Source: Pagrus major (lineage: Eukaryota > Chordata > Actinopteri > Spariformes > Sparidae). Taken from it: a DNA stretch of 64,000 nt. Under the pieces are notes generated by a model. That model was not told where the DNA came from. It saw only the letters and a program-made list of their open reading frames with translations, and ran no database searches. Position 1 is the first letter of the stretch. The number at the start of each line of letters is the position of its first letter. The stretch lies in assembly GCF_040436345.1 (NCBI RefSeq), contig NC_133221.1, positions 2,498,618 through 2,562,617 of the forward strand, written 5' to 3'. A program made the translations under genes and the position numbers. Shown here in pieces: positions 1,062-44,400 of this stretch.

Positions 1062-1429
1062 TTAAAGGAGCATTCTGTAGTTTTGGTGAAGAAATGTTAA
1101 TGAGCAGAGAAAGATCTTCATTGGCTGATTTTTTTTTCTGCCTAAACAAACTAAATAAACAAACTCTTTGTTTTCATGACTGAATAAACAAACTGACCTT
1201 AAAGGACAACACAGTTTATACTGTTTTACTTTGTTTACATGTGGCGGACCCTGCCACCTCTCTAGCTTCAAACAGTGTTCTGGGACCTTATTCTCCTCTG
1301 AGAACAGCTTGTTTATTCACTGATGGAAAAGATAAATGTTTCTGAGTTTGTATTATTACCTCATTAATATTGTAAATATTAAATTCTGAGTTTGAATTTC
1401 TCCTCCAAAACTACGTAGTGCCCCTTTAA
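1062..1429. mobile_element. piggyBac-type MITE at the lectin stop codon (unit 1)
   Basis: The element is bounded by TTAA on both sides (1062-1065 and 1426-1429). Its inverted ends read AGGAGCATTCTGTAGTTTTGG and, from the other side, AGGGGCACTACGTAGTTTTGG. TTAA duplication is the known signature of piggyBac-superfamily insertion. It is an internally deleted relative of the longer copy at 5885-7170. The TAA stop of lectin gene A (1428-1426, minus strand) lies inside the TTAA, so the mRNA would run from the stop straight into the transposon. Confidence 0.8.
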
Positions 1430-4400
1430 AGCTCGCCCTTCTTCTTCTTCTTTGTCTCCTCCTCCTTGTGGAAGACCTTTCCATCCGACTGCTTCCTCCA
1501 GCTCAGTTTGACGTCTCCATCCACCCCCTGGTCCTTCAGCCTCTGTTTGAACTGACAAAACCTCCTCAGCATCATCACTCACATAGAGATATTACATTCT
1601 GCACTGTTCTTTATATTTTCCTCTATTTCAGGAGCGCTCTGCATCACATTTATATATTCACATGTTTTGTTCCCTAAGATGGCGTCGCCCTGTTGGCCTG
1701 CTGTCCTTTCTGACTTTCTCCTCCTCTTTCTTCTGTTGTAAAGGCTCTGGCTTTTCTAAAACTGATAGTAAAGTTTGTGCTGAGCGTCGACTCTTAACGA
1801 GTCACAGTTGTGCCTCAGTCAGGCCTGCAGAGTGGCACGACTACGCTCTTTAATCCTGCACATATGTACGTGCACAGCTTCCTACACAATGCTCAGGTCA
1901 TGTCATGTTTATCTGTTTCCTACCTCTTCACACTGTTTCTTGTTCTGCTGAGTTTTCCCTCGGGGGATCAACAAAGTCTGATTTTATTTGAATTTCTTCT
2001 GTTTGTGTATAAAATTAGAAAGGTCCAACATGATTTACCTCCTTCAACATTTGTTCCAACACAGCAGGGTCGTTGAGATCCAGAGAGGAGTCCTTTCTCT
2101 CCAGACGCACTTTGATCACTTGCCTTGTAGTCGTAGGGACTGTGAAAAAATATGTTCATATAAATATTGACTCATCAGTCTGAACAGTGACAGGGAACAT
2201 GTGGCTCTGTCCTCCATCTGTGGCATCTGTTTGCTGACTTTACAGATAATTTCATGTCAATGATAAACATCAGGAGTGTTTACATTTTATTTTCTGTCCA
2301 TAACTTTATGTTTTGTGTTGTTTTTGTTACATTATCATTGAGGACATTTGATGCTAAATTAAACCAAAATACAAATATTAATACAAGTTGAATAAAGAGT
2401 TAACACTCACGTAGGCTGTAGCAAACGAACGGTCTCTTCAGGTCACAGGGAACGTCCCACCATTTTCCATCTCTGCCCAAGTGTGCCACCACACAATCCT
2501 CTATCCCACCATCGTTATCAGGTTGACCTTGAGCCCAGTACCTAAATGAGGAGTTACTTCCATCCGACCACTTCCAGGAGTCTCTGAAAAGGCCGATCCA
2601 GGCTATTCCACCTGGAGGTATCAAGTCCTTTACCTCCTGGTTCTCTGCTGTGTTCCTCACACTGGCCAGGTCTGTGTGGTGATCTCTGCAGTAGCTCTGG
2701 GCCTCAGTCAAGGTCATGGAAGTATTGATGAGGACAAACGTCACATTCAGCCCTGAAAACAGAGCACAGTGCTGTGCAGAGGTACTATAACATACAGTTT
2801 ACCATCCATGCCGTGTCTGTGGCAGTATTCACAGCATTATAAATCCACTGAATTAATGACTTTGTAAAATAAAAATGGAAGACATGATCATCTTAATAAA
2901 TGTTACTGAGTATTTCTTCAGTCTCTCTCCATTAATAATCACATCCTTAAAATCTACATCTAATAGATTGACACATTATTTTTTCTACATGTGAATATTT
3001 CCTCAGATTTCTGAAACACAAACATACGGGCCCCTCTGAAGGGTCACCAGATACATCTGAGGGCTCGTCAGATGGTTGATGGGAGAGGAAAGAAAAGAAA
3101 AAAGTTCTGATGCACAAATCTGTCTTCAGTTTTTCTTTTCTTTAACTTTCCTCCAATATTTGCTTTCACATAAAATAAAATGGATCATCTGACTTCTTTG
3201 GACTTCACCATGTGAGAAGTTTAGTGGGGAAATGTTTCTTTGGTGGAACTAACAACACATGAACATGTGAAACATGACAAGAAGCTCCAGTAGACAGAGC
3301 TTTGTGTCAGAGGTCACCAGCACAAAGAAACAAGAAGGTTGGGAACTAGTTCAATATATAACAATGTGTTGTATTTTATAAGCTTCTCATATGTTTTTTA
3401 ATGTTTATATTCATCTGAACAGTAACAAGTAACTACAGCTGTTGAGTAAATGAAGTCAATTCAAGAATACATCATTTTCCCTCTGAGATCCAGTGGAGTT
3501 ATGAAGTTACACAGTAAATAAAGTAGCGTAGTAATAGAGTACATGTACTCAGTTGCTTTCATGTGGGGTGTGGAGCCAGATCTGCCTTTTATTATCTGAA
3601 ACAGCTAAATTGCGGCCACGTCTCCGTCTGAGTGACTCAGAGACTGCAGCATGTTTTTAAATCCAGCAGGATGGACTATTACAATGCTCTTCTATCTGCT
3701 CCACCCAAACAAGTCATTCATCACTGACAAGCTTCTTTTTCTCATTCTCACCTGCATCGCTGTCAAATCATCAATATTAATTGCTGCCTTATTGGCTTGT
3801 AAGTCATCTGTAAAGCTCTTTGAATTGTATTAACTTTGATGGAAGGTGCTGTAAATAAAGTTTGACTGACTGATCCTGTATCAGCCCAAATAATGAGGGA
3901 GAGCTCAAGAACCTGAACTGGTGTGTTTTAAACTTCACTGCTTAATATTCTCACCTCTGACATCCATGCAGACCGACTGAAAGCGACTTTCACAAGGGTA
4001 GTCATGCCATCGTCCACCTTCATACATCACTGTGCAGTACTCTCTACTTTTATAGTTGTCTGGTTGTCCAGTCCTCCACTGTCTGAACTCAGTCTCCCCG
4101 TCTTTGTAGAAACTGGTGTCTGACAGTGACCACCTCCAGCTGTTCACGTCATCATACAGCCCGATCCAGACACCCTGAAAGCAATATTTTAATATATCTT
4201 TCTTTAGCCTCACATTTATTACATGGCAACACAATATACACTCAGAAGTTAATCTGAGGCTTCAGCAGTCTGAGTGACACAGATCCAGTTCATATCCTCC
4301 AAAGTGACAGGCTTTCTAATACAACATTCCCTCCTTTTGTTTCCATCCACTGCAGCTCAACAGGGACACTCAGTCTGGTGAAACACAACGAGGGAGTTTT

Positions 4401-7400
4401 ATATTAAAAACACTTCACAGCCCGATTCTAAAAGAGTTGGGACGCTGTGTAGAATAAAGACACAATGCAAACATTTGCAAAGAACTGACTTCAGTCCTGC
4501 TGCTCCTGAGCTCATGTAGTAAAATCATTTATACAATCATGTGTTTGACGACCTCGCCCCATCCTTGCTTGTGAACGACTGAGCCTTTGGAGGACGCCCC
4601 TTTCATACCCGATTATGATACGATCACCTGTTACCGATGAACCTGTTCACCTGTGGAAGCTTCCAACACAACAACTTTCAGGCTTTTGTTGCCCCGTCAC
4701 AATTTGTTTGAAACGCGTCGCTTCAGAATAGACATATATTTACACAAATCAGTGAAGCTGAACATGAAATAAATAAATTGTCTTTGTACTGTTTTAAATT
4801 GAGTTTATGTCAAAAAGGATCAGCAGATTATCACATTCCCCGATTCTGTTTAATTTGTATTTTACACAACGTCCCAACTTCTTTGGAAAGAGCGTTGTAT
4901 ACATATATAGACATATGTAGACATATAGTCTATGAGTACATTTCATATTGTAAACAAATAAATATGAGGCGTTTTCTAGAGGTAGAGGTAGGAGTAGTTT
5001 AGATTCAAGCTGCACCTTAATCAGACACCAGATTAAAGTGCTGCTTACAATGTCCTTCTGAGAAGTAGTGGAGTAGAAGTACAGAGTGGCAGTAAATGGA
5101 AATACTCAAGTACAAGTACAGTACCTCAAAATGTTACTTCAAAATGTATCTACTGACTTTACACCAATGTGGAAGTGCAAAACTTTCAACCTGCGTGTCA
5201 TTTACATGTTTGTCAAAAATGGCTTTGAGACTAAAGAAAGACATCAGTGAACTCACAGTTGTTAAAAACACTTGGTTTTTATCTGCGGTGTCGTTCAGGA
5301 TCCTCACGTCCTCCATGTTGTCTATAGTTGCCAGGTCAGTGTATTTCTCTCTGCAGTACCTCTGAGCTTCAGTCATGTTCTTCCGGTCAGAAACAAAATG
5401 GTACTGACGAGGGACATGTGATGAGACAGCACTCAGCCCTGTAGAGACAGACATGCATACTGGTGACATTTGGGTGAAACATGACTTCTATGAATCATCT
5501 GGACTTTGTCACGTTGCATTTCAGTGTATTCAGGTGTGTCGTTGTCTCTGTCAGTAAAATCAGCTGTGGAATGTAACAAAGTCATTGACTTAAGTACTGT
5601 ACTTAAACTAGTGACAGGGTTGGGGGTGTCTGTTGACACTTTAAGGACAATTTGCAGTGTTTCTGTTTATGTAACTTTATATTTCTACTCCATTACATTT
5701 CACTGTAATATCAGACTTTTACTGCAGTACATTTAATTGTTATTCAGGTGAAGATTTTAGTCTAAAGACACATGACAACCTGAAATACAATAAAATACAT
5801 AGTTATATATTACACCAGTGGTTCTCTGGGACGTCCCAGTAACTCAAGTGGTAGAGCATGCGTCTCATGCACAGAGGCTGATCATTAAAGGGGCACTACG
5901 TAGTTTTGCAAAAGAAATTCTTTTAAAAAATAGATATTTACAATATTAATGAGGTAATAATACAAACTCAGAAATATTTATCTTTTCCATCAGTGAATAA
6001 ACAAGCTGGTCTCAGAGGAGAATAAGGTCCCAGAACACTGTTTGAAGCTAGAGAGGTGGCAGGGTCCGCCACATATAAACAAAGTAAACCAGTATAAACT
6101 GTGTTGTCCCAACCCTCCAGGCGCCAGAGTTTATTTAGGAAAATATTCCGTTTGGATTTTAAGATTTCAAAAGGCTGTAGCTTGGAAGTGGTGAGAGATA
6201 AATCCATAGTGTAAATGAGAAAAATATTCATAATGACCTAAAGTTTGTGATGGGAGTAAATTTAATCATCTAATTTGCATATTGTGACGTCACCAGGTGA
6301 CTGAAAGTAACTTTCAGTAAAACTGATTTTTGAACATATTTACACAGAAAAAAAATATTTCATCCTCAAAATGAAGGAACAGGAGTTTGATTGGAGTAAA
6401 TTTACTAATATAATTCGTATGTCACCAGGTAAAATTCAGTAAAACAGAATTCTGAACATATTTACACAGTAGATTTGTTTTCACTTCATTTCATTTTTTC
6501 ATAGATTTTTTTCATCCTCTCATCCTCAGAGTAAATAAACAGGAATCTGATTGGAGTAAATTTCCTAATCTAACTTGTAAAAAGAAAATAAAACTCTCGC
6601 AGTGATCAGCGTGTGTTGCTTGTGTGACAGTGTCTGCAGCTGCAGCATCGTCATCAGAGGGCAAATCGTCCCCTTCTGAATCGCGATCAGCAAAGATCTG
6701 TGCAAGCACCTCATCCGCACTGTAAAGTCTTTTGGGCATTTTGTTTTTTATTACAAAAGTCGCTGTCTGTCTCTCGATCTGTCCAGCACACTTCTGCCAC
6801 GGCTCCGCGGCTCTCTCCTCTCCCACTCTGCCGTTTAGCCGCTGCCGCTCCGACAGCTGGTGTCGGGTTTCAAACTTTTTTTTTCTCAGGTATTTTGCAT
6901 AGAAACACACCCACAACTGACGTCAGGATTGAAGCTGAATCTAGTGGCCATCTAGTGGTAGCAAGCAAGTAACAGCACAAGGCAGTAGATGTAAAGATAT
7001 GGGCTGTTTTAATGAGCAATGTTGCCTGTCGCAATAATGCCACTTTGTTTATTCAGTCATGAAAACAAAGTTTGATTGTTTAGTTTGTTTAGGCAGAAAA
7101 AAATCAGCCAATGAAGATCTTTCTCTGCTCATTAACATTTAATCACTAAAACTACAGAATGCTCCTTTAATGGATTCTGATACTTTAAGTCCATTGATCT
7201 GATAATACTTCCTATTACTAAAGATCCCGTCCCAAAGTTTTGGCTCGTCGGTGTATAAACTGTGTGTGTATAAATATATATACTGTATATATATATTAAT
7301 GAGTGCAGGTACAGAGTCTGACTACATTTTGATTGAATCATCCCTAATTGCATTTTTAAGAATAAATGAGAGCTGTGATTGGTTCCTGCTTTATTCAGAC

Positions 7401-7833
7401 AGAACCCAGTTTATTGTTTTTTGTTTTAAAAGTCAGTTCAGCGTCGAGAAATATTGAGGAACTCAGTGATGGTTTGTAAACGGCACACACCAAAGCTGGA
7501 CTGGAAAAAATAGAAAGCTAAAGACTGTAAGAGCTGCAGCCTGACCACAAAATATTTCAGGGTAAAAGAAATCAAATTCAGAGGATTCAGTTTGCATTAG
7601 TCTGTGCGTCAGTCAAAGGAGAAGGATTATATAAATGTGGGACATCATTTTTAATTCATTAGACATTTTAATTTATTTTATTAATTTAATTTATTAGACA
7701 TTTTTAATTTAGACTTCTGATGACAGTTTTGTCCCCACAAGGTTTTGTGCTGTAATAAAAGAATATAAACATCTATAAAACAAATAAACTACTGACCTGA
7801 TGCAGCCATGATGAGCAGCAGGACTGCGTCCAT
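1426..7833 (-). CDS. Two-CTLD secretory lectin, copy A (C-terminus KGEL)
   Basis: I assembled this gene from splice sites on the minus strand. Coding exons are 7833-7797, 5438-5257, 4174-3955, 2752-2411, 2139-2039 and 1551-1426, with exits in phases 1, 0, 1, 1 and 0; joined they encode 335 residues. Exon 1 is a signal peptide (MDAVLLLIMAAS, then G). Exons 2-3 form CTLD1 (about residues 24-143), with WIGL, QPD and a WHD where WND is usual. Exon 4 is CTLD2 (about 150-258), with QPD and WWD. Sequons such as NMT, NDT, NVT and NSS suit a secretory protein. The tail (261-335) has the NDPAV and SWRKQSDGKVFHKEE blocks I associate with teleost macrophage-mannose-receptor-1-like/CLEC20A-like predictions. 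The end is KKKKKGEL, one base from KDEL. QPD suggests galactose-type binding by family rule; the ligand is unknown. The 5' noncoding exon is uncertain. Confidence 0.85.
3631..3880 (+). mobile_element. LINE 3'-end fragment in intron of gene A
   Basis: The + strand carries a decayed reverse-transcriptase C-terminus (aggatggactattacaatgc reads as MDYYNA, a common LINE block), then a short 3' UTR ending in aaataaag and TGAC repeats. It lies between exons 3 and 4 of the lectin gene. Near-identical copies sit at about 21941-22190 and 40660-40907, so the insertion predates unit duplication. Confidence 0.65.
5829..5884 (+). repeat. tRNA-like 5' half (SINE or tRNA relic)
   Basis: The stretch has an A-box-like segment (agtggtagagcatg) followed by tgcgtctcatgcacagaggc, resembling a tRNA D-arm and anticodon arm. 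No T-arm or B box follows: the TTAA of the piggyBac-type element cuts in at 5885. The same half recurs at 29541-29592 and 42859-42914. It is not a functional tRNA gene. Confidence 0.5.
5885..7170. mobile_element. piggyBac-superfamily element, longest copy
   Basis: The element runs from TTAA 5885-5888 to TTAA 7167-7170. Its ends match the MITEs at 1062, 18899, 38087 and 54750, but it keeps about 900 bp of extra interior, including the start of a transposase-like ORF on the minus strand. It sits in intron 1 of lectin gene A, is absent from unit 2, and persists as a truncated left end in unit 3 (42915). Confidence 0.75.
6512..6739 (-). pseudogene. piggyBac transposase N-terminal remnant
   Basis: From the ATG at 6739 the minus strand reads MPKRLYSADEVLAQIFADR, then an acidic Asp/Glu/Ser run. 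This is the character of piggyBac-derived transposase N-termini (short basic start, then acidic low complexity). The resemblance fades within about 50 residues and the frame stops at 6512. The DDD catalytic domain is missing, so this copy cannot transpose on its own. Confidence 0.55.
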
Positions 7834-9482: not shown

Positions 9483-9574
9483 CGCCACGCCTCCCGCGAG
9501 GTGTGTTTGGAGTATAAGTATTGGATCCCCATTAAGTACTGGATTTCATTGGATTCCATGACTGGATTTATTGC

Positions 9575-11580: not shown

Positions 11581-11688
11581 GATGGTACATCATTTTTAAT
11601 TTAAACTTCTGATGACAGTTTTGTCCCCACAAGGTTTTGTGCTGTAATAAAAGAATAGAAACATCTATAAAACAAATAAACTACTGAC

Positions 11689-18306: not shown

Positions 18307-18578
18307 ATTTATCTCATCACACAGTATATTATCTCATCACACAGTCATTTATCTCATCACACAGTATATTATCTCATCACACAGTATATTATCTCATCAC
18401 ACAGTATATTATCTCATCACACAGTATATTATCTCATCACACAGTATTTTATCTCATCACACAGTATATTATCTCATCACACAGTATATTATCTTATCAC
18501 ACAGTATATTATCTCATCACACAGTATATTATCTCATCACACAGTATATTATCTCATCACACAGTATATTATCTCATC
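18307..18578. repeat. 20-bp minisatellite at unit 1/2 boundary
   Basis: About 13-14 copies of the cacacagtatattatctcat unit, mostly the tat variant, followed by the same ctatgtcagg sequence as at 741. Confidence 0.95.
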
Positions 18579-18898: not shown

Positions 18899-19265
18899 TT
18901 AAAGGAGCATTCTGTAGTTTTGGTGAAGAAATGTTAATGAGCAGAGAAAGATCTTCATTGGCTGATTTTTTTCTGCCTAAACAAACTAAATAAACAAACT
19001 CTTTGTTTTCATGACTGAATAAACAAACTGACCTTAAAGGACAACACAGTTTATACTGTTTTACTTTGTTTACATGTGGCGGACCCTGCCACCTCTCTAG
19101 CTTCAAACAGTGTTCTGGGACCTTATTCTCCTCTGAGAACAGCTTGTTTATTCACTGATGGAAAAGATAAATGTTTCTGAGTTTGTATTATTACCTCATT
19201 AATATTGTAAATATTAAAATTCTGAGTTTGAATTTCTCCTCCAAAACTACGTAGTGCCCCTTTAA
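18899..19265. mobile_element. piggyBac-type MITE (unit 2)
   Basis: Copy of the element at 1062-1429, between TTAA 18899-18902 and TTAA 19262-19265. The latter contains the stop codon of lectin gene B. Confidence 0.8.
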
Positions 19266-22200
19266 AGCTCGTCCTTCTTCTTCTTCTTCTTTGTCTCCTC
19301 CTCCTTGTGGAAGACCTTTCCATCCGACTGCTTCCTCCAGCTCAGTTTGACGTCTCCATCCACCCCCTGGTCCTTCAGCCTCTGTTTGAACTGATAAAAC
19401 CTCCTCAGCATCATCACTCACATAGAGATATTACATTCTGCACTGTTCTTTATATTTTCCTCTATTTCAGGAGCGCTCTGCATCACATTTATATATTCAC
19501 ATGTTTTGTTCCCTAAGATGGCGTCGCCCTGTTGGCCTGCTGTCCTTTCTGACTTTCTCCTCCTCTTTCTTCTGTTGTAAAGGCTCTGGCTTTTCTAAAA
19601 CTGATAGTAAAGTTTGTGCTGAGCGTCGACTCTTAACGAGTCACAGTTGTGCCTCAGTCAGGCCTGCAGAGTGGCACGACTACGCTCTTTAATCCTGCAC
19701 ATATGTACGTGCACAGCTTCCTACACAATGCTCAGGTCATGTCATGTTTATCTGTTTCCTACCTCTTCACACTGTTTCTTGTTCTGCTGAGTTTTCCCTC
19801 GGGGGATCAACAAAGTCTGATTTTATTTGAATTTGTTCTGTTTGTGTATAAAATTAGAAAGGTCCAACATGATTTACCTCCTTCAACATTTGTTCCAACA
19901 CAGCAGGGTCGTTGAGATCCAGGGAGGAGTCCTTTCTCTCCAGACGCACTTTGATCACTTGCCTTGTAGTCGTAGGGACTGTGAAAAAAATATGTTCATA
20001 TAAATATTGACTCATCAGTTTGAACAATGACAGGGAACATGTGGCTCTGTCCTCCATCTGTAGCAGGGCCGGCTCTCGCCATTTTGGTGCCCGAGGCAAG
20101 ATTAGGAGTTGGATTTATGACCGCAGCTGAAGTAAAATATCTCATTATGTATGTAATGTAGACAATGCCCACAGTAACATACAATTAACAGAACTCACCG
20201 GCGTCAGGCTGCGTGGTGCTGGAGGTTGGTGGCGTGCTGGATGTGATGCTGGATGTGATGCTGGATGTGGTGCTGGATGTGATGCTGGATGTGGTGCTGG
20301 ATGTGGTGCTGCTGCTGCTTGTTGTCTGAACTGCAGCTGTATTCAAACACACAGTCGTTCATACTGTTACACCACTGCATTAAGTCCATTGTGTCATTCT
20401 ACAACTACAAAACATCTGTTCATATAAATGCCTTGTAGTCGTAGGGACTGTGAAAAAATATGTTCATATAAATATTGACTCATCAGTCTGAACAGTGACA
20501 GGGAACATGTGGCTCTGTCCTCCATCTGTGGCATCTGTTTGCTAACTTTACAGATAATTTCATGTCAATGATAAACATCAGGAGTGTTTACATTTTATTT
20601 TCTGTCCATAACTTTATGTTTTGTGTTGTTTTTGTTACATTATCATTGAGGACATTTAAATTAAACCAAAATCCAAATATAAATACAAGTTGAATAAAGA
20701 GTTAACACTCACGTAGGCTGTAGCAAACGAACAGTCTCTTTAGGTCACAGGGATCGTCCCACCATTTTCCATCTAAGCCCAAGGCTGCTCCCACACAAGC
20801 CTGATTCCCACCATGGTTATCAGGTTGACCTTGAGCCCAGTACCTAAATGAGGAGTTATGTCCATCCGACCACTTCCAGGTGTCTCTGAAAAGGCCGATC
20901 CAGGCTAGTTGTCCTGGAGGTACCACGTCCTTTACCTCCTGGTTCTCTGCTGTGTTCCTCACACTGGCCAGGTCTGTGTGGTGATCTCTGCAGTAGCTCT
21001 GGGCCTCAGTCCAGGTCATGGGAGTCTCGATGAGAACAAACGTCACATTCAGCCCTGAAAACAGAGCACAGTGCTGTGCAGAGGTACTATAACATACAGT
21101 TTACCATCCATGCCGTGTCTGTGGCAGTATTCACAGCATTATAAATCCACTGAATTAATGACTTTGTAAAATAAAAATGGAAGACATGATCATCTTAATA
21201 AATGTTACTGAGTATTTCTTCACAGTCTCTCCCCATTAATAATCACATCCTTAAAATCTACATCTAATAGATTGACACATTATTTTTTCTACATGTGAAT
21301 ATTTCCTCAGATTTCTGAAACACAAACATACGGGCCCCTCTGAAGGGTCACCAGATACATCTGAGGGCTCGTCAGATGGTTGATGGGAGAGGAAAGAAAA
21401 GAAAAAAGTTCTGATGCGCAAATCTGTCTTCAGTTTTTCTTTTCTTTAACTTTCCTCCAATATTTGCTTTCACATAAAACATTGGATCATCTGACTTCTT
21501 TGGACTTCACCATGTGAGAAGTTTAGTGGGGAAATGTTTCTTTGGTGGAACTAACAACACATGAACATGTGAAACATGACAAGAAGCTCCAGTAGACAGA
21601 GCTTTGTGTCAGAGGTCACCAGCAGAAAGAAACAAGAAGGTTGGGAACTAGTTCAATATATAATAATGTGTTGTATTTTATAAGCTTCTCATAAGCTTCT
21701 CATATGTTTTTTAATGTTTATATTCATCTGAACAGTAACAAGTAACTACAGCTGTTGAGTAAATGAAGTCAATTCAAAAATACATCATTTTCCCTCTGAG
21801 ATCCAGTGGAGTTATAAAGTTACACAGTAAATAAAGTAGCGTAGTAATAGAGTACATGTACTCAGTTGCTTTCATGTGGGGTGTGGAGCCAGATCTGCCT
21901 TTTATTATCTGAAACAGCTAAATTGCAGCCACGTCTCCGTCTGAGTGACTCAGAGACTGCAGCATGTTTTTAAATCCAGCAGGATGGACTATTACAATGC
22001 TCTTCTATCTGCTCCACCCAAACAAGTCATTCATCACTGACAAGCTTCTTTTTCTCATTCTCACCTGCATCGCTGTCAAATCATCAATATTAATTGCTGC
22101 CTTATTGGCTTGTAAGTCGTCTGTAAAGCTCTTTGAATTGTACTAACTTTGATGGAAGGTGCTGTAAATAAAGTTTGACTGACTGATCCTGTATCGGCCC

Positions 22201-25200
22201 AAATAATGAGGGAGAGCTCAAGAACCTGAACTGGTGTGTTTTAAACTTCACTGAATGTTCTCACCTCTGACATCCATGCAGACCGACTGAAGGCGATTTT
22301 TACAATCAGAGTCGTACCATTGTCCACCACCAGACATCGTTGTGCAGTGCTCTCTACTTAGATAGTTGTCTGGTTGTTGTGGGTGGGTTGTCTCCCACTG
22401 TCTGAACTCAGTCTCCCCGTCTTTGTAGAAACTGGTGTCTGACAGTGACCACCTCCAGCTGTTCATGTCTTCATACAGCCCGATCCAGGCACCCTGAAAG
22501 CAATATTTTAATGTATCTTTCTTTAGGCTAAATTTTAATATAAGCATTCGACCCTGCTCTAGCTTTTAGCTGCTAAAGGAAATGTTTTCACGTAACATTT
22601 TCAGTCTTGATACTGCCTCTACTTTACAATGACTTTGGCTCAACTCTCACAACAATTTGCAAAACCCTTAAGTCTTTCTTAAAACTATATCTAGGTGCCC
22701 ATATGTACACTGAAACAGGATACATGCTGTGATCATTCTTCCTGTTCATACTGGCCATATTATCCCCTGGTAATACTCTTTCAATATACTGTCAGTGACG
22801 GGAGTCAAAATCCACAGTCCTCATTCTGAGTAAAACTACATTCAAAAGTTAATCTGAGGCTTCAGCAGTCTGAGTGACACAGATCCAGTTCATATCCTCC
22901 AAAGTGACAGGCTTTCTAATACAACATTCCCTCCTTTTGTTTCCATCCACTGCAGCTCAACAGGGACACTCAGTCTGGTGAAACACAACGAGGGAGTTTT
23001 ATATTAAAAACACTTCACAGCCCGATTCTAAAAGAGTTGGGACGCTGTGGAGAATAAAGACACAATGCAAACATTTGCAAAGAACTGACTTCAGTCCTGC
23101 TGTTCCTGAGCTCATGTAGTAAAATCATTTATACAATCATGTGTTTGACGACCTCGCCCCATCCTTGCTTGTGAACGACTGAGCCTTTGGAGGACGCCCC
23201 TTTCATACCCGATTATGATACGATCACCTGTTACCGATGAACCTGTTTACCTGTGGAAGCTTCCAACACAACAACTTTCAGGCTTTTGTTGCCCCGTCAC
23301 AATTTGTTTGAAACGCGTCGCTTCAGAATAGACATATATTTACACAAATCAGTGAAGTTGAACAAGAAATAAATAAATTGTCTTTGTACTGTTTTCAATT
23401 GAGTTTATGTCAAAAAGGATCAGCAAATTATCACATTCACGATTCTCCTTTGCTCTCCGCTTCACTCTCTCTTTCTTTTTTCATTGCAATCTTTTCCTTT
23501 TGAAATTTATTTGTATTTTTTCCTGGATACCTACATATCACTGGGAGCCTAATTTATGATAGTTACTGGAGGCTACGACTGTTTTTTAAACTGTTTTACC
23601 CTGAGAGTGTGGCTTATCAGCAGCACAACCCGGCACTGTCGTGACCGGGATTGAGGAGCTCAGCTAACAGAAGCTAATTAGCAGCAAGATGCCTCCTTTT
23701 TCCACGGAGGACTACCACAAACTGCTCCAGAAGATAGCAGTACTGGAAACAAAAATGCATCGGCTCGAAGTGAACGTGGAGATAAATGGACAATATGGAA
23801 ATGATACTACTCTGCCGATATTCCAAAACAGTGAAAGGGAGCAGGCTAACACAAAGCTAACGGGCACAACCAAGGCACGGCCGGAGCCAGGTGTAAATGG
23901 GAGTAAATCAAACAGTCCTCCCTGGAACTCTCTTGGTGCTAAGCCAAAGCACCACAAAATACCTCCCTCAAACATGGGAAGACGATTATCAGGCAGAACC
24001 CAGCACTCGGAGATGGATTACGACACCGAGTGGCCTGCACTGCCATCACACAGGACTGTCTCCTCAACCCCAAAACCACGGAGAAAACAACCACGGACCA
24101 AGGCTACGAGCAAACTGCCCCAAGACACAGGGATTCTACTTGTGAACAGATTTGCTCCACTTTCACAGGACCCAGACTCCCCAAAAGAAGGCTCATCTCC
24201 CAGGACCAGAGAAAGGTATGAGGCTAAATCTGATGCTAAAGGGCTACAGAGAGAGCTAACCACTGGGCCTCAAACTCTGATAGTGGGTGACGGAGCTGTG
24301 TATGACATAAAATGCTTTTGCAGCAAGAACAACACCAAGGTACTGTGTTTTCCCAATGACATGGTGTCTGATGTTTCAAAAAAGATCCTGAAGATTGTTG
24401 CTGAGCATCCAACATTGAAATCGCTCATCATACACACAGGAGCCCTTGATGTTGTGAAGCAACAATCAGAGCTATTAAAACGAGACTTCATGGAACTGAT
24501 AAACAAAGTTCAGTGTTTAAATACTGAGGTGTTTTTCAGTGGACCTCCAACAGTTCGGCGAGGAGATGAGAGATTCAGCAGGCTGATGATGCTGAACAGA
24601 TGGCTTAAAGATACATGTACTGCTCAATCACTGAACTTTATTGACAACTTCAACATCTTTTGGGAACGCAGGCACCTCTTTAAGGCAGATGGATTTAGCC
24701 TTAACAAGTCAGGAGTACAGCTGCTAAGTGCCAACATCTTTTACTTTTTGCGTCAGGCACCAGCAGTCCCTGTCAAGGACAAGAGACAAAACAATCCAAA
24801 ACAGCAGATAAGACGGCGCTCTGGTGAGGGCGCTGAGATAAGGATTGACAGCGGAGGACAGCAGACTCAGAAAGAACCTGCAACATCATCATCTGCACCC
24901 CAGCAACTGGATTATCCACCAGCCTCAACAACGTCATCATCTGCACCCCAACAAGTGGATTATCCACCAGCCCCAACAACGTCATCATCTGCACCCCAAC
25001 AAGTGGATCATCCACCAGCCCCATCAGCTCAACACGAGGAGTCTCCCTTAGCCCCAAAAGCCCCAAAGGGGGAGTCTCCCCCGGCCCCAACAGGAGACTC
25101 CCAACATTCAACCCCCCGAACCCCATCCAGCCCCCAACTCTCTTCATCTAGTCCTGACTCCCCATTTCTGGATTTCCCTGACAGGATGAAGAGCTTTCTC

Positions 25201-28200: not shown

Positions 28201-30061
28201 AGCTCTGAGATCTACTGACTCAGGTCAGATAGTGGAGCTCAGAGTTCAGACCAGACATGGTGAAGCAGCATTTAGCTGCTATGCTGCACACAAGTGGAAC
28301 AAACTACCAGCAGAACTGAGATCAGCCCCAACTGTAAGCACTTTTAAATCCAGGTTAAAAACATTTCTCTTTTCACGTGCTTATAGCTGAGAACTTAAAA
28401 CTTTATCTATTTTCTTTTATTTTACTTTTATTTGCTCTTGCTTTTAACTCTGTTTTCAGTGTTTTGTTTGTTTTTATTTTGTCTTATGCTTCCTTTTTTA
28501 TGTAAAGCACATTGAGTTGCCTTGGTATGAAATGCGCTATATAAATAAAGATGCCTTGCCTGCCTTCTGTTTAATTTGTATTTTACACAACGTCCCAACT
28601 TCTTTGGAAAGAGCGTTGTATACATATATAGACATATGTAGACATATAGTCTATGAGTACATTTCATATTGTAAACAAATAAATATGAGGCATTTTCTAG
28701 AGGTAGAGGTAGGAGTAGTTTAGATTCAAGCTGCACCTTAATCAGACACAAGATTAAAGTGCTGCTTACAATGTCCTTCTGAGAAGTAGTGGAATAGAAG
28801 TACAGAGTGGCAGTAAATGGAAATACTCAAGTACAAGTACAGTACCTCAAAATGTTACTTCAAAATGTATCTACTGACTTTACACCAATGTGGAAGTGCA
28901 AAACTTTCAACCTGCGTGTCATTTACATGTTTGTCAAAAATGGATTTGAGATTAAAGAAAGACATCAGTGAACTCACATAGGGCACATTGCTTTTATCTA
29001 CGGTGTCGATCAGGATCCTCACGTCCTCCATGTTGCCTATAGTTGCCAGGTCAGTGTATTTCTCTCTGCAGTACCTCTGAGCTTCAGGCATGTTCTTCAC
29101 GTCATAAACAAAATGGTACTGACGAGGGACATGTGATGAGACAGCACTCAGCCCTGTAGTGACAGACATGCATACTGGTGACATTTGGGTGAAACATGAC
29201 TTCTATGAATCATCTGGACTTTGTCACGTTGCATTTCAGTGTATTCAGGTGTGTCGTTGTCTCTGTCAGTAAAATCAGCTGTGGAATGTAACAAAGTCAT
29301 TTACTTAAGTACTGTACTTAAACTAGTGACAGGGTTGGGGGTGTCTGTTGACACTTTAAGGACAATTTGCAGTATTTCTGTTTATGTAACTTTATATTTC
29401 TACTCCATTACATTTCACTGTAATATCAGACTTTTACTGCAGTACATTTAATTGTTATTCAGATTTAGATTTTAGTCTAAAGACACATGACAACCTGAAA
29501 TACAATAAAATACATAGTTATATATTACACCAGTGTTTCTCTGGGACGTCCCAGTAACTCAAGTGGTAGAGCATGCGTCTCATGCACAGAGGTAATACAT
29601 ACTAATTAACCGATTGAATCATCCCTAATTGCATTTTTAAGAATAAATGAGAGCTGTGATTGGTTCCTGCTTTATTCAGACAGATCCCAGTTTATTGTTT
29701 TTTGTTTTAAAAGTCAGTTCAGCGTCGAGAAATATTGAGGAACTCAGTGATGGTTTGTAAACGGCACACACCAAAGCTGGACTGGAAAAAATAGAAAGCT
29801 AAAGACTGTAAGAGCTGCAGCGTGACCACAAAATATTTCAGGGTAAAAGAAATCAAATTCAGAGGATTCAGTTTGCATTAGTCTGTGCGTCAGTCAAAGG
29901 AGAAGGATTATATAAATGTGGGACATCATTTTTAATTCAGACTTCTGATGACAGTTTTGTCCCCACAAGGTTTTGTGCTGTAATAAAAGAATATAAACAT
30001 CTATAAAACAAATAAACTACTGACCTGATGCAGCCATGATGAGCAGCAGGACTGCGTCCAT
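19262..30061 (-). CDS. Two-CTLD secretory lectin, copy B (C-terminus KDEL)
   Basis: Minus-strand exons are 30061-30025 (signal MDAVLLLIMAAS), 29153-28978, 22493-22265, 21054-20713, 19978-19878 and 19390-19262, an in-frame total of 337 residues. A phase 1-1 Ser/Thr exon (20330-20199) can be added without breaking the frame, giving 381. CTLD1 (exons 2-3) carries a three-codon insertion before its QPD and WYD in place of WND. CTLD2 keeps QPD and WWD. The tail has the NDPAV and SWRKQSDGKVFHKEE blocks, six lysines after ETK-type sequence, then DEL and stop, so the protein ends KDEL, the ER-retrieval signal read by KDEL receptors. The intron between exons 2 and 3 holds an antisense L2-like LINE, raising it from 1.1 to about 6.5 kb. 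All coding exons are open. Localisation is inferred from signal peptide plus KDEL only. Confidence 0.85.
19961..20061. repeat. Direct repeat, proximal copy (exon 5 boundary)
   Basis: This roughly 100-bp block (exon 5 start, acceptor and upstream intron) is repeated at 20430-20529. The two copies flank the Ser/Thr-rich exon. Units 1 and 3 have one copy and no extra exon. Confidence 0.85.
20199..20330 (-). CDS. Extra mucin-like Ser/Thr-rich exon of lectin copy B
   Basis: On the minus strand, acceptor CTGCAG (20336-20331) precedes 132 bp that end at donor GTGAGT (20198-20193). Entering and leaving in phase 1, it fits exactly between exon 4 (phase 1 exit) and exon 5. The frame reads about 44 residues of TTSS/ITSS repeats ending in TPPTSSTTQPDA, a typical O-glycosylated spacer. 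The nearby acceptor TTCAG would give a His/Gln-rich frame with a stop, so the CTGCAG site is preferred. It has no counterpart in copies A and C. Use in mRNA is inferred. Confidence 0.6.
20430..20529. repeat. Direct repeat, distal copy with truncated exon 5
   Basis: Second copy of 19961-20061. It contains the acceptor and first bases of exon 5, then breaks off into unrelated sequence at 20430, so it cannot replace exon 5. Confidence 0.85.
21941..22190 (+). mobile_element. LINE 3'-end fragment in intron of gene B
   Basis: Copy of 3631-3880 at the same intron position, with a few substitutions. Confidence 0.65.
22530..22845. repeat. Unit-2-specific insertion, unclassified
   Basis: About 310 bp next to exon 3 of gene B have no counterpart in units 1 and 3, where sequence passes directly from ctttctttagcctcac to actca(g/a)aagttaatctg. 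No ORF or clear terminal repeat is visible; the source is unknown. Confidence 0.55.
23689..25365 (+). CDS. LINE ORF1 protein with degenerate SGNH esterase fold
   Basis: 558 residues from ATG 23689. Residues about 6-30 form a short coiled coil (DYHKLLQKIAVLETKMHRLE). Residues about 195-355 match the SGNH-hydrolase-like domain of CR1/L2 ORF1 proteins. The active-site positions are changed: G-D-G at 200-202 where G-D-S carries the nucleophile, G-A-L-D at 251-254 where G-x-N-D is expected, and D-G-F-S at 334-337 where D-x-x-H is expected. About residues 400-445 hold three 16-residue repeats around SSSAPQQVDYPP, followed by a Pro/Ser-rich tail. In this family ORF1p is thought to bind RNA and membranes. 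The frame is intact although the esterase should be inactive. Confidence 0.9.
   Translation: MPPFSTEDYHKLLQKIAVLETKMHRLEVNVEINGQYGNDTTLPIFQNSEREQANTKLTGTTKARPEPGVNGSKSNSPPWNSLGAKPKHHKIPPSNMGRRLSGRTQHSEMDYDTEWPALPSHRTVSSTPKPRRKQPRTKATSKLPQDTGILLVNRFAPLSQDPDSPKEGSSPRTRERYEAKSDAKGLQRELTTGPQTLIVGDGAVYDIKCFCSKNNTKVLCFPNDMVSDVSKKILKIVAEHPTLKSLIIHTGALDVVKQQSELLKRDFMELINKVQCLNTEVFFSGPPTVRRGDERFSRLMMLNRWLKDTCTAQSLNFIDNFNIFWERRHLFKADGFSLNKSGVQLLSANIFYFLRQAPAVPVKDKRQNNPKQQIRRRSGEGAEIRIDSGGQQTQKEPATSSSAPQQLDYPPASTTSSSAPQQVDYPPAPTTSSSAPQQVDHPPAPSAQHEESPLAPKAPKGESPPAPTGDSQHSTPRTPSSPQLSSSSPDSPFLDFPDRMKSFLTSGIQLTPRQGLIFFPINPPHRPPPRIPPRQKQPSTKSHRAPPLPRNHHIIESE
25369..25641 (+). pseudogene. LINE ORF2 N-terminal piece, frameshifted
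   Basis: This frame opens right after the ORF1 stop and ends TRLALLN, then shifts. In related LINEs the segment continues as the IRSLxNK block at the start of the AP-endonuclease domain. Here aataagatcacta (25602-25614) looks two bases short, and the expected reading resumes in the frame of the next feature. The first metal-binding Asn of the endonuclease is thus separated from the rest. Confidence 0.7.
25628..28390 (+). CDS. LINE ORF2: AP-endonuclease and reverse transcriptase
   Basis: About 920 open residues. The endonuclease part shows SETWL, IYRPP, GDFNIHID and the C-terminal LSDHFCVFFDL. The reverse transcriptase shows NYRPISNLPF, QSGFRPHHSTETAL, LDLSAAFDTVDH, GVPQGSVLGPLLFNLY and the catalytic YADD near residue 646. 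A typical C-terminal region follows (SRLDYCNGLLTGLPQ, ARVLTRTKRSDHITPVLKTLHWLPV). The family role is target-primed reverse transcription. The 2-nt loss near 25606 removes the natural N-terminus, so the element is probably not autonomous although the remainder is uninterrupted. Confidence 0.93.
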   Translation: MLVNDIIMTYNLDFLLLSETWLTECSCATILNEVAPTNFSFMNKCRSGKKGGGVATIFKSVFQCKETIFGDFSSFEYLCFLVKGDPKVLFLIIYRPPRYPRKFFDEFAELLSVICTDHNFFIITGDFNIHIDNNMDTNAKELCSLLDTFGLSQHVKGPTHTRGHTLDLIISRGVDITSVDIKDLALSDHFCVFFDLQITPDMQLPSVSVRKRFINENTSVKFMEAIVMSPTVSAETVDELLDNFNCKISNVIDTIAPFKTKMTLTRQRTPWRNTLMVKALKTECRKAERKWRKTKLQIHHDLYKQSLCNFNHGLFKARQQHFTEMINKNINNTRALFAMVDKLTTPPKEIASELFSTEKCNEFAYFFNEKIKSIRLNINTNQQNNTMMQSLKSPRNKSTVMSEFNTVDQKTLEETVQHLKTSTCCLDSIPSDFFKTIISSVQTDLQQIINFSLQSGTFPKPLKVAAIKPLLKKRTLDTTILTNYRPISNLPFIAKIVEKVFFNQLSNFLNSSGLFDKFQSGFRPHHSTETALIRVLNDIRLNTDSGKVSVLVMLDLSAAFDTVDHSILLDRLETWAGLSGTVLKWFRSYLEERSYFVTIGSYQSDRVAMTCGVPQGSVLGPLLFNLYMLPLGQILQNSNVNYHSYADDTQIYLALSPDDCSPIESLCHCLEQVKNWMSQNFLQLNQEKTEIIVFGNKEKRVAISKHLESLSLETKDQVRNLGVLIDSDLTFNSHIKSVTKSAFYQLKNISRIKGFMSQTDQEKRIHAFISSRLDYCNGLLTGLPQKSIKQLQLIQNAAARVLTRTKRSDHITPVLKTLHWLPVSYRIDFKVLLLIYKSLNGLGPEYMNDMLVEYKPSRALRSTDSGQIVELRVQTRHGEAAFSCYAAHKWNKLPAELRSAPTVSTFKSRLKTFLFSRAYS
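29541..29592 (+). repeat. tRNA-like 5' half (unit 2)
   Basis: Same A-box-bearing relic as 5829-5884, here followed by different sequence because the piggyBac-type element is absent from this unit. Confidence 0.45.
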
Positions 30062-38086: not shown

Positions 38087-38455
38087 TTAAAGGAGCATTC
38101 TGTAGTTTTGGTGAAGAAATGTTAATGAGCAGAGAAAGATCTTCATTGGCTGATTTTTTTTTCTGCCTAAACAAACTAAATAAACAAACTCTTTGTTTTC
38201 ATGACTGAATAAACAAACTGACCTTAAAGGACAACACAGTTTATACTGTTTTACTTTGTTTACATGTGGCGGACCCTGCCACCTCTCTAGCTTCAAACAG
38301 TGTTCTGGGACCTTATTCTCCTCTGAGAACAGCTTGTTTATTCACTGATGGAAAAGATAAATGTTTCTGAGTTTGTATTATTACCTCATTAATATTGTAA
38401 ATATTAAAATTCTGAGTTTGAATTTCTCCTCCAAAACTACGTAGTGCCCCTTTAA
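38087..38455. mobile_element. piggyBac-type MITE (unit 3)
   Basis: Copy of 1062-1429 between TTAA 38087-38090 and 38452-38455; the latter holds the stop codon of gene C. Confidence 0.8.
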
Positions 38456-41400
38456 AGCTCGTCCTTCTTCTTCTTCTTCTTCTTTGTCTCCTCCTCCTTG
38501 TGGAAGACCTTTCCATCCGACTGCTTCCTCCAGCTCAGTTTGACGTCTCCATCCACCCCCTGGTCCTTCAGCCTCTGTTTGAACTGATAAAACCTCCTCA
38601 GCATCATCACTCACATAGAGATATTACATTCTGCACTGTTCTTTATATTTTCCTCTATTTCAGGAGCGCTCTGCATCACATTTATATATTCACATGTTTT
38701 GTTCCCTAAGATGGCGTCGCCCTGTTGGCCTGCTGTCCTTTCTGACTTTCTCCTCCTCTTTCTTCTGTTGTAAAGGCTCTGGCTTTTCTAAAACTGATAG
38801 TAAAGTTTGTGCTGAGCGTCGACTCTTAACGAGTCACAGTTGTGCCTCAGTCAGGCCTGCAGAGTGGCACGACTACGCTCTTTAATCCTGCACATATGTA
38901 CGTGCACAGCTTCCTACACAATGCTCAGGTCATGTCATGTTTATCTGTTTCCTACCTCTTCACACTGTTTCTTGTTCTGCTGAGTTTTCCCTCGGGGGAT
39001 CAACAAAGTCTGATTTTATTTGAATTTGTTCTGTTTGTGTATAAAATTAGAAAGGTCCAACATGATTTACCTCCTTCAACATATGTTCCAACACAGCAGG
39101 GTCGTTGAGATCCAGAGAGGAGTCCTTTCTCTCCAGACGCACTTTGATCACTTGCCTTGTAGTCGTAGGGACTGTGAAAAAATATGTTCATATAAATATT
39201 GACTCATCAGTCTGAACAATGACAGGGAACATGTGGTTCTGTCCTCCATCTGTGGCATCTGTTTGCTAACTTTACAGATAATTTCATGTCAATGATAAAC
39301 ATCAGGAGTGTTTACATTTTATTTTCTGTCCATAACTTTATGTTTTGTGTTGTTTCTGTTACATTATCATTGAGGACATTTGATGCTAAATTAAACCAAA
39401 ATCCAAATATAAATACAAGTTGAATAAAAAGTTAAGACTCACGTGGGCTGTAGCAAACGAACGATCTGTTCCGGCTACAGAGATGGTCCCTCCATTTTCC
39501 ATCTCTGCCCAAGTTTGCCACCACACAAGCCTGATTCTCACCATAGTTATCAGGTTCACCTTGATCCCAGTACCTAAATGAGGAGTTACGTCCATCCGAC
39601 CACTTCCAGGAGTCTCTGAAAAGGCCGATCCAGACTATTCCTCTTGAAGGTATCACGTCCTTTACCTCCTGGTTCTCTGCTGTGTTCCTCACACTGGCCA
39701 GGTCTGTGTGGTGATCTCTGCAGTAGCTCTGGGCCTCAGTCCAGTTCATGTGAGTCTCGATGAGGACAAACGTCACATTCCGCCCTGAAAACAGAGCACA
39801 GTGCTGTGCAGAGGTACTATAACATACAGTTTACCATCCATGCCGTGTCTGTGGCAGTATTCACAGCATTATAAATCCACTGAATTAATGACTTTGTAAA
39901 ATAAAAATGGAAGACATGATCATCTTAATAAATGTTACTCAGTATTTCTTCACAGTCTCTCCCCATTAATAATCACATCCTTAAAATCTACATCTAATAG
40001 ATTGACACATTATTTTTTCTACATGTGAATATTTCCTCAGATTTCTGAAACACAAACATACGGGCCCCTCTGAAGGGTCACCAGATACATCTGAGGGCTC
40101 GTCAGATGGTTGATGGGAGAGGAAAGAAAAGAAAAAAGTTCTGATGCACAAATCTGTCTTCAGTTTTTCTTTTCTTTAACTTTCCTCCAATATTTGCTTT
40201 CACATAAAACATTGGATCATCTGACTTCTTTGGACTTCACCATGTGAGAAGTTTAGTGGGGAAATGTTTCTTTGGTGGAACTAACAACACATGAACATGT
40301 GAAACATGACAAGAAGCTCCAGTAGACAGAGCTTTGTGTCAGAGGTCACCAGCAGAAAGAAACAAGAAGGTTGGGAACTAGTTCAATATATAACAATGTG
40401 TTGTATTTTATAAGCTTCTCATCTGTTTTTTAATGTTTATATTCATCTGAACAGTAACAAGTAACTACAGCTGTTGAGTAAATGAAGTCAATTCAAGAAT
40501 ACATCATTTTCCCTCTGAGATCCAGTGGAGTTATAAAGTTACACAGTAAATAAAGTAGCGTAGTAATAGAGTACATGTACTCAGTTGCTTTCATGTGGGG
40601 TGGAGCCAGATCTGCCTTTTATTATCTGAAACAGCTAAATTGCGGCCACGTCTCCGTCTGAGTGACTCAGAGACTGCAGCATGTTTTTAAATCCAGCAGG
40701 ATGGACTATTACAATGCTCTTCTATCTGCTCCACCCAAACAAGTCATTCATCACTGACAAGCTTCTTTTTCTCATTCTCACCTGCATCGCTGTCAAATCA
40801 TCGATATTAATTGCTGCCTTATTGGCTTGTAAGTCGTCTGTAAAGCTCTTTGAATTGTACTAACTTTGATGGAAGGTGCTGTAAATAAAGTTTGACTGAC
40901 TGATCCTGTATCGGCCCAAATAATGAGGGAGAGCTCAAGAACCTGAACTGGTGTGTTTTAAACTTCACTACTGAATATTCTCACCTCTGACATCCATGCA
41001 GACCGCCCAAAGGCGACTTTTACAATCAACGTCGTTCCATCGTCCACCATCACCATAAATCGCTGTGCAGTGGTCTCTACTGTTTTGGTTGTCTGGTTGT
41101 CCAGTCTGCCACTGTCTGAACTCAGTCTCCCCGTCTTTGTAGAAACTGGTGTCTGACAGTGACCACCTCCAGCTGTTCACGTCATCATACAGCCCGATCC
41201 AGACCTCCTGAAAGCAATATTTTAATATATCTTTCTTTAGCCTCACATTTATTACACGGCAACACAATATACACTCAAAAGTTAATCTGAGGCTTCAGCA
41301 GTCTGAGTGACACAGATCCAGTTCATATCCTCCAAAGTGACAGGCTTTCTAATACAACATTCCCTCCTTTTGTTTCCATCCACTGCAGCTCAACAGGGAC

Positions 41401-44400
41401 ACTCAGTCTGGTGAAACACAACGAGGGAGTTTTATATGAAAAACACTTCACAGCCCGATTCTAAAAGAGTTGGGACGCTGTGTAGAATAAAGACACAATG
41501 CAAACATTTGCAAAGAACTGACTTCAGTCCTGCTGCTCCTGAGCTCATGTAGTCAAATCATTTATACAATCATGTGTTTGACGACCTCGCCCCATCCTTG
41601 CTTGTGAACGACTGAGCCTTTGGAGGACGCCCCTTTCATACCCGATTATGATACGATCACCTGTTACCGATGAACCTGTTCACCTGTGGAAGCTTCCAAC
41701 ACAACAACTTTCAGGCTTTTGTTGCCCCGTCACAATTTGTTTGAAACGCGTCGCTTCAGAATAGACATATATTTACACAAATCAGTGAAGTTGAACATGA
41801 AATAAATAAATTGTCTTTGTACTGTTTTAAATTGAGTTTATGTCAAAAAGGATCAGCAAATTATCACATTCCCCGATTCTGTTTAATTTGTATTTTACAC
41901 AACGTCCCAACTTCTTTGGAAAGAGCGTTGTATACATATATAGACATATGTAGACATATAGTCTATGAGTACATTTCATATTGTAAACAAATAAATATGA
42001 GGCATTTTCTAGAGGTAGAGGTAGGAGTAGTTTAGATTCAAGCAGCACCTTAATCAGACACCAGATTAAAGTGCTGCTTACAATGTCCTTCTGAGAAGTA
42101 GTGGAGTAGAAGTACAGAGTGGCATTAAATGGAAATACTCAAGTACAAGTACAGTACCTCAAAATGTTACTTCAAAATGTATCTACTGACTTTACACCAA
42201 TGTGGAAGTGCAAAACTTTCAACCTGCGTGTCATTTACATGTTTGTCAAAAATGGCTTTGAGATTAAAGAAAGACATCAGTGAACTCACAGTTTTGAACA
42301 CTTGGTTTTTATCTGCGGTGTCGATCAGGATCCTCACGTCCTCCATGTTGTCTATAGTTGCCAGGTCAGTGTATTTCTCTCTGCAGTACCTCTGAGCTTC
42401 AGTCATGGTCTTCAGGTCAGAAACAAAATGGTACTGACGAGGGACATGTGATGAGACAGCACTCAGCCCTGTAGAGACAGACATGCATACTGGTGACATT
42501 TGGGTGAAACATGACTTCTATGAATCATCTGGACTTTGTCACGTTGCATTTCAGTGTATTCAGGTGTGTCGTTGTCTCTGTCAGTAAAATCAGCTGTGGA
42601 ATGTAACAAAGTCATTTACTTAAGTACTGTACTTAAACTAGTGACAGGGTTGGGGGTGTCTGTTGACACTTTAAGGACAATTTGCAGTATTTCTGTTTAT
42701 GTAACTTTATATTTCTACTCCATTACATTTCACTGTAATATCAGACTTTTACTGCAGCACATTTAATTGTTATTCAGATGAAGATTTTAGTCTAAAGACA
42801 CATGACAACCTGAAATACAATAAAATACATAGTTATATATTACACCAGTGTTTCTCTGGGACGTCCCAGTAACTCAAGTGGTAGAGCATGCGTCTCATGC
42901 ACAGAGGCTGATCATTAAAGGGGCACTGCGTAGTTTTGGAGAAGAAATTCTTTTAAAAAATAGATATTTAAAAAACTAATGAGGTAATAATACAAACTCA
43001 GAAATATTTATCTTTTCCATCAGTGAATAAACAAGCTGGTCTCAGAGGAGAATAAGGTCCCAGAACACTGTTTGAAGCTAGAGAGGTGGCAGGGTCCGCC
43101 ACATATAAACAAAGTAAAACAGTATAAAACAGCAGAGGGAGGGGCCCCACAAACAACACACACACACACACACACACACAGAGAAAAGAGGAACTGTAGA
43201 CCAGAATAGACGAGATGATCAGATATGATTTTCATACACTGAGGTACGTGTCAGGCAGCAGGTCTAACAGGTGTCAGGTGACCAGGCCGCTGTACCATCT
43301 TCTCTCACACCATGTTTAACACGTATAGAAATCTGACCAACGACAGGCAGAAATCCACATTACTTCTGTGGACAAACCACCAGAATAAAGTGAGTTTCAA
43401 CTAGAGGTCGACCGATTAATCGGTTTGGCCGATTAATCCGCGCCAATAGGACGTTTTACAAACTATGGGAATCGGCGGAACTTGGCTCCGATAGTGGCCG
43501 ATGGCTGCAGTTTTTTCCACAGCGCCATAAACTGCTTCTTCCCTGCGCTGCTCTGTCTCCCTGTCGCTCTGATCCCTGAGGGGCGGGGCTGCTCTTCACA
43601 CAGAGAGAGCAGGGGAGAGAGAGAGACGGGCGTATGCAGCGGCAGAGAGAGGAGAGAAGTGAAGAAGATAACTCGAGACGACCACACGTGTTATTGGAAG
43701 TGCAATAAAACCTTCACGAGTTGAAAGTCAACAAACATAACCTCCTTGGCGGAGGCAATAAGTACCACTTGTTCAACAAGCACAAACGTGCATCATATTT
43801 CAGCATAAACAGCGACATTTCCACCGGCATGTTTTAGCCTACATGACCACAATTAACAGCTTGTTAAGAACACGCTCAAATGAAAGCTGTCTGTGTGTAG
43901 TCTGTTCAGCTTAGTTTGCCATGAATCTTAAAATTTGGCAATTTCTTGTAAACTTTAGCTGCTGGCTGAGACAAACCAGCCCCCCCCCCCCCCCCCCCCC
44001 CCCCCGATTTGTTTTCAGATATTACTGAGTTTATATAGTGACTTTGCTGTTGTAAACTTTACTGTTGCTGCAGTGGAAACAATATGTAGTTATATTTGAA
44101 ATATAAATGAATTCCTGTTCTGAATTTATTCTTTTAAAAAAAGACAATTAAAAATCAAACCATTCTTTAGTATTGATAAAGAACAGGACTGTTAAGAGTT
44201 TGGATAAGATAAAGATAAAATCCTAACATACCATCCCTATAGCTGGTTAGTGGTTACAGCCTGACTATGGGAGGATGAGAAAAATCACAGTTCAAATCCC
44301 TTCACTATACGCCTTGTTTAACCAGTGTTATTTTGTGATTATTATTTTTTATGGCACACAGTGCCATCACTCACAAAAATGTGAAGGATCACTTAATTTC

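Follow-up and report, generated by a model that had tools for sequence, protein, structure and literature searches.

Among the soluble residents of the ER that carry a C-terminal KDEL or KTEL, the group comprising AGR2, CDNF, POGLUT1 and calreticulin is encoded by conserved genes and not by a fast-changing cluster, and has thioredoxin, saposin-like or glycosyltransferase folds and not C-type lectin domains. Animal C-type lectins are known chiefly as surface receptors or secreted proteins. Among them, the mannose-receptor family (LY75, PLA2R, MRC1, MRC2 and the yolk-sac IgY receptor) consists of large membrane receptors with eight or more lectin domains, and the secreted lectins of fish plasma and mucus are small, soluble C-type lectins in expanded families, for which we know of no ER-retrieval end. 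Among the open-licence papers listed in our searches, judged by titles and the openings of abstracts, none describes a C-type lectin, from fish or elsewhere, that has KDEL or KTEL or is retained in the ER; searches on CLEC20A and on positive selection in tandem fish C-type lectins gave no lead. In the receptor-binding assay of PMC7803782, the signal obtained with KTEL reaches as much as 80% of that with KDEL. Here, we describe a locus whose sequence points, with reasonable probability, to a fish family that has expanded recently and whose soluble proteins combine two C-type lectin domains with a C-terminal KDEL-receptor signal, working as a whole in the manner proposed below.

Gene models and the C-terminal end

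The window, i.e., the whole stretch of 64,000 nucleotides analysed, corresponds to positions 2498618-2562617 of contig 7 in a host genome of 786 Mb in 25 contigs, which its genes suggest to be that of a teleost. It contains three closely similar genes, A, B and C, and a diverged relative, D, all on the minus strand of the window. The spliced models of A, B and C encode 335, 383 and 337 residues, respectively, each as one open protein with consistent phases, and splice borders are GT-AG with the sole exception of a GC donor in exon 1 of copy C. In all three, a hydrophobic leader is followed by two C-type lectin domains and a tail domain; the first lectin domain occupies two exons, the second a single exon, and the tail two exons. 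Copy B differs from A and C by an extra Ser/Thr-rich exon between the second lectin domain and the tail.

30025..30061, minus strand: copy B, start codon and hydrophobic leader (MDAVLLLIMAAS)
28978..29153, minus strand: copy B, first lectin domain, first half
22265..22493, minus strand: copy B, first lectin domain, second half
20713..21054, minus strand: copy B, one-exon second C-type lectin domain with QPD
20199..20336, minus strand: copy B, mucin-like exon of 46 codons, rich in Ser/Thr and unmatched in A and C
19878..19978, minus strand: copy B, tail exon 1 (VPTTTRQVIKVRLERKDSSLDLNDPAVLEQMLKE)
19262..19390, minus strand: copy B, last exon with tail domain part 2, K6, KDEL and stop TAA
45223..45259, minus strand: copy C, start codon and leader (MDVVLLLILAAS), followed by gcaagt, a GC splice donor in place of GT
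42290..42468, minus strand: copy C, first lectin domain, first half
40985..41207, minus strand: copy C, first lectin domain, second half
39443..39784, minus strand: copy C, second lectin domain, EPD motif
39071..39171, minus strand: copy C, tail exon 1
38452..38583, minus strand: copy C, last exon with K7, KDEL and stop
7797..7833, minus strand: copy A, start codon and leader
5257..5438, minus strand: copy A, first lectin domain, first half
3955..4174, minus strand: copy A, first lectin domain, second half
2411..2752, minus strand: copy A, second lectin domain, QPD motif
2039..2139, minus strand: copy A, tail exon 1
1426..1551, minus strand: copy A, last exon with K5, KGEL and stop

The first-pass annotation had called a lectin with a signal peptide, two lectin domains and a C-terminal KDEL; of these, the two domains and the KDEL hold, and the signal peptide is seen as a hydrophobic leader. 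Pfam Lectin_C matches copy B in two stretches (113.7 bits against a cut-off of 22.6, E 8.8e-33), and no other Pfam family scores above cut-off in this copy. Each domain has four core cysteines (Cys 41/121/135/143 and 169/234/250/258 in B), a pattern shared by A and C. For the tail domain, Pfam gives no match and the PDB only one at chance level (E 0.86). Hydropathy of A, B and C bears out the leader (KD19 of 1.8-2.0 at the N-terminus), and no membrane span follows it, the highest KD19 past residue 30 being 1.07.

The last exon of copy B (19390-19262) begins after a phase-0 acceptor (...ttttatcag, then TTC) and reads FKQRLKDQGVDGDVKLSWRKQSDGKVFHKEEETKKKKKKDEL up to the stop. The full gene models of A, B and C settle the reading frame of this exon: its borders are exact, and each copy gives one unbroken spliced frame that puts KDEL at the end of B and C. 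The lysine run has five, six and seven residues in A, B and C, as had been noted, so that B ends in K6-DEL, C in K7-DEL and A in K5-GEL; the single A-to-G change invoked for the KGEL of copy A is seen as GAC to GGC. B and C thus carry a KDEL-receptor motif in its KDEL form. The KGEL of copy A falls outside the PROSITE pattern as quoted in PMC7803782 and so, strictly, does KTEL, which works.

Such ends are rare. The window together with eight related loci contains 4721 open stretches of at least 20 codons, and the end [KRHQSA][DENQT]EL occurs in 10. Half of the 10 belong to the genes analysed here (B, C and the three KTEL genes described below); the remaining five, out of 4716 other stretches, are copies of one duplicated non-coding stretch that ends in RKEEL. 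An end of the form [KHR]DEL is found in B and C alone among the 4721.

Several further elements lie around the genes. Extra leader exons at 11725 and 32253 and half exons of the first lectin domain, some of them broken, at 9197-9066, 13074-12915, 31509-31380 and 33628-33469 are relics of partial duplications. A 20-base tandem repeat is present downstream of each gene copy (1-741, 18309-18578 and 37617-37766, with 37, 13.5 and 7.5 units, the first cut by the window edge), and a minisatellite with units of 24, 41 and 65 bases sits beside leader exons (9564-11583 and 31886-32108). Parts of lectin genes of another kind, with an EPN motif, occur at 52338-52957 on the minus strand and 63461-63872 on the plus strand, apparently outside the KDEL-tailed family. 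The mucin-like exon of B (20336-20199) has a match in another gene of the cluster (L081, 813-944); this gene also shows a lectin domain, and over 4 kb nothing in it matches the tail.

Relatives of the last exon and the element behind it

Genome searches that took the last exon, as well as three diverged forms of this exon, as queries gave 28 relatives, the ends of which were read. Three weak matches on contig 6 (E 1.1-7.7) were not counted; the one that was read (L066) shows an unrelated frame. Bacterial and archaeal contigs, searched for stray fish DNA, yielded no relative. Fifteen of the relatives form a cluster on contig 7 at 1.71-3.06 Mb, 13 of them ending in KDEL and two in KGEL. Because these copies are near-identical duplicates, the 13 KDEL ends are not independent evidence. 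Better evidence for the motif is provided by three two-domain genes that are diverged from the cluster and have KTEL at the matching place; contig 10 carries two of them and contig 11 the third. KDEL-type ends are thus present in more distant relatives within this genome.

The KDEL-type end is absent in 10 of the 28 relatives. These comprise D (YELQYG..., where the frame runs on), a gene at 22.45 Mb of contig 7 (NELKC, where the frame runs past ...EL), a frameshifted D-like copy, which is counted here although it still spells GACGAGCTTCAA, and genes or fragments on contigs 2, 3 (three), 10 (two) and 20. The following parts of D were recognised, its tail exon (from 46213) having the same acceptor phase and frame as that of B; the first half of its lectin domain has no match beside 46909..47133 in the window.

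46019..46213, minus strand: paralogue D, last exon, ...KKKTRPEEYELQYGITASVYLKDCFCFVL and stop, without a KDEL end
46438..46533, minus strand: paralogue D, tail exon 1
46909..47133, minus strand: paralogue D, part of a lectin domain, EPN motif

Two cluster copies appear to be mosaics, L014/L079 (contig 7, 2249388) and L015/L080 (contig 7, 2167290), in which the lectin exon starts D-like, continues array-like and is followed by a KDEL tail.

The KTEL tails of contigs 10 and 11 differ with a dN/dS of 0.26 over 72 codons, and the tails of B and contig 10 with 0.15 at a saturated dS (1.93); on these ratios, the KTEL tails are under purifying selection. The tails of B and D differ by 17 amino-acid and six silent codon changes in 60. 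Within the cluster, the two tail exons differ by 0.43% and 0.60%, compared to a mean of 0.33% in the intron between them (13 copies; two of the 15 are without an anchor, and the tail exon 1 anchor of L012 is wrong). Since the tail exons are about as divergent as this intron, conservation of the motif inside the cluster gives no test of selection. In a tree of the second lectin domain and tail, KDEL and KTEL genes do not group together, and a single clade is not rejected (p-AU 0.132), so that this tree is compatible with one origin of these ends as well as with two.

Directly behind the KDEL end lies a transposable element:

18899..19265, minus strand: MITE behind copy B, inverted ends TTAAAGGRGCAYT, TTAA flanks; corresponding elements at 1062-1429 (A) and 38087-38455 (C)

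This element of ∼370 bases provides the 3′ UTR of A, B and C together with an AATAAA 109-110 nt past the stop (110 in B), and the stop codon of the KDEL end sits in its TTAA border. The element starts directly after the stop in all 15 cluster copies. Elsewhere in the window, there are one more full copy and three partial ones (54750-55068, 5885-6109, 42915-43128 and 7035-7172). When the flanks of the element in copy B are joined in a script, KDEL followed by TAA remains. The motif therefore need not come from the MITE and, by this reconstruction, probably did not arrive with it. D cannot be taken as an empty site of the MITE, as the similarity between the sequence past the element and that of D is not significant (equally high scores are reached by 753 of 2000 shuffles and by 1040 of 3000 stretches of the window).

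These data bear on whether the KDEL end is an accident in which a purine-rich triplet repeat meets a stop codon, the proteins being ordinary secreted lectins of plasma or mucus. The end does lie inside a variable AAG run, and the relatives that end otherwise (D, the gene at 22.45 Mb, those on contigs 2, 3 and 20, and others), together with the two KGEL copies of the cluster, count in favour of an accident and against ER retrieval. A further point against retrieval is the mucin-like exon of B, for which O-glycosylation would be expected in the Golgi. However, three diverged genes keep KTEL at the matching place in tails under purifying selection, and the only such ends elsewhere among the open stretches are the copies of a single repeat. 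We therefore regard an accident as unlikely and the KDEL or KTEL end as likely to be a working retrieval signal.

Diversification of the lectin domains

The alignment of second-domain exons covers 13 of the 15 copies in the cluster (window 2411-2752, 20713-21054 and 39443-39784, and loci L069-L078), the mosaics L079 and L080 being dropped; the dN/dS set comprised 12 different sequences after removal of L075, the DNA of which is identical to that of B. Over the whole exon, dN/dS is 2.47, and 0.05% of 2000 bootstraps give parity or less. In the half that contains the ligand loops, it is 3.03, with no bootstrap out of 2000 reaching down to parity, and in the first part of the exon 1.88, with 8.5% at or below parity. 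The median difference between copies is 13.6% in the ligand-loop half and 5.2% in the first part. The first lectin domain of A, B and C shows the same tendency in a comparison of three sequences, with dN/dS of 3.03 and 1.54 (2.2% and 8.4% of bootstraps at or below parity, respectively).

Two introns close by hardly differ, the one in front of this exon by the median (0.4%) and the one between the tail exons by the mean (0.33%). In 11 of the 15 copies, the median divergence is 0.4% and the mean 7.0% for the intron that precedes the second-domain exon, and 4.2% and 15.8%, respectively, for the one that follows it; the means are raised by copies that differ or align badly in these introns. A sliding-window alignment without the two mosaics gives 7-12% divergence in the first 240 bases; as the divergence among A, B and C in this part is 0.4-0.8%, we read the higher figure as misalignment. 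The 250 bases before the third exon of copy B do not align to A or C (51% different), and this intron is much longer in B. The dS of the second-domain exon (0.04) exceeds the divergence of the intron on its 5′ side, suggesting that older exon diversity was probably kept or shuffled while gene conversion homogenised the flanks. Under gene conversion the copies are not independent, and simple dN/dS counting is thus a first test only.

A cluster of pseudogenes or an assembly artefact might be suspected from the half-exon relics between the copies and from the two mosaics. We consider this very improbable, given that frames are open and splice sites present in A, B and C, and that the exons differ more than most of the introns do, in the main by amino-acid changes.

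The putative sugar site has diversified as well. EPN is the mannose-type and QPD the galactose-type motif; the 13 second domains have QPD in five copies, EPN in four, EPD in two, QPN in one and a broken EP in one. None of the 13 has WND at its usual place before the cysteine, where WWD (nine), WFD (two), WRD (one) and WWN (one) are found; in L071, the WWN copy, WND is spelled one place nearer the cysteine. In the first domain, QPD is present in A, B and C, and WND in C alone. As a motif-based prediction, none of the 13 second domains has the full calcium site of sugar-binding C-type lectins, i.e., EPN or QPD together with WND in its usual position.

This pattern speaks against the part of the first-pass annotation in which the protein was taken for a sugar-binding chaperone or a loading factor for glycoproteins in the ER. 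Lectin domains combined with KDEL do resemble calreticulin, which, according to PMC3507924, retrieves MHC class I in a KDEL-dependent manner. A glycoprotein chaperone would nevertheless be expected to keep a conserved high-mannose-type site, and this family has hypervariable ligand loops, many recent copies, mixed motifs with QPD in five of 13 second domains, and no WND at the usual place. A chaperone or loading factor is accordingly improbable; the loops would better fit a recognition family under changing ligands than a housekeeping glycan chaperone.

Proposed working and comparison with known systems

We propose that the leader directs the protein into the ER lumen, where, according to hydropathy, it would be soluble. 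Following established biology, KDEL, or KTEL in the relatives on contigs 10 and 11, would be bound by KDEL receptors in the Golgi, and these copies would probably be returned to the ER, a step we hold with some confidence. The KGEL copies, and the paralogues in which the frame continues beyond the motif, would evade this retrieval and leave the cell by secretion. The ligand-contact loops have undergone more amino-acid than silent change, which suggests that the ligand is variable and foreign and makes host defence the most likely role, a suggestion toward which we lean only slightly. Defence could take two routes: foreign glycoproteins made inside infected cells may be caught, or the lectin may be stored in the ER and released upon stress or damage.

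More specific versions are less secure. In one, the diversifying two-domain lectins, retained in the ER, would form a tandem immune array inside the cell in which each copy is tuned to foreign glycoproteins, e.g., viral envelope proteins, that it would catch while these fold, and the signal-less copies would be the secreted arms; we offer this as speculation that is more probably wrong than right by a wide measure. In another, the lectin would be stored in the ER and undergo regulated release into mucus, the signal being leaky or masked on demand. The Ser/Thr-rich exon of B would suit such release, and there is precedent: KTEL retains AGR2 in the ER of CHO cells, and considerable amounts of AGR2 nevertheless reach gut mucus (PMC4128659), and selective secretion is possible for KDEL-bearing proteins (PMC9326092). 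The strong KDEL form in B and C argues against it, and we treat regulated release as a tentative option and retrieval to the ER as the preferred reading.

Of more interest than the KDEL end itself is that this family joins ligand loops that diversify to an ER-retrieval tail that stays fixed. If the proposal is correct, pattern recognition would be placed inside the secretory pathway, and the loss or gain of four residues would shift a lectin between the cell interior and mucus. KDEL copies, KGEL copies and a run-on paralogue in one cluster, together with KTEL paralogues on two contigs, form a natural comparison set.

Compared to known systems, the lectins described here, as predicted soluble luminal proteins with a C-terminal KDEL-receptor motif, resemble calreticulin as well as AGR2, CDNF and POGLUT1, all three of which have KTEL (PMC4128659, PMC7803782). 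In sequence, the second lectin domain is closest to the mannose-receptor family among solved structures (IgY receptor, E 2.1e-25; LY75, 1.1e-24; MRC1, 1.6e-20; best of 115 matches). In contrast to that family, the lectins have two domains, a tail domain and KDEL, and copy B is without many lectin domains, a fibronectin II domain or a membrane anchor. The cowpox virus protein CPXV203 is not a lectin. It is soluble and has a KTEL end through which its ligand is kept in the ER (PMC3507924), and so shows that the logic proposed here works, although, unlike the fish lectins, it is viral and acts against host MHC class I.
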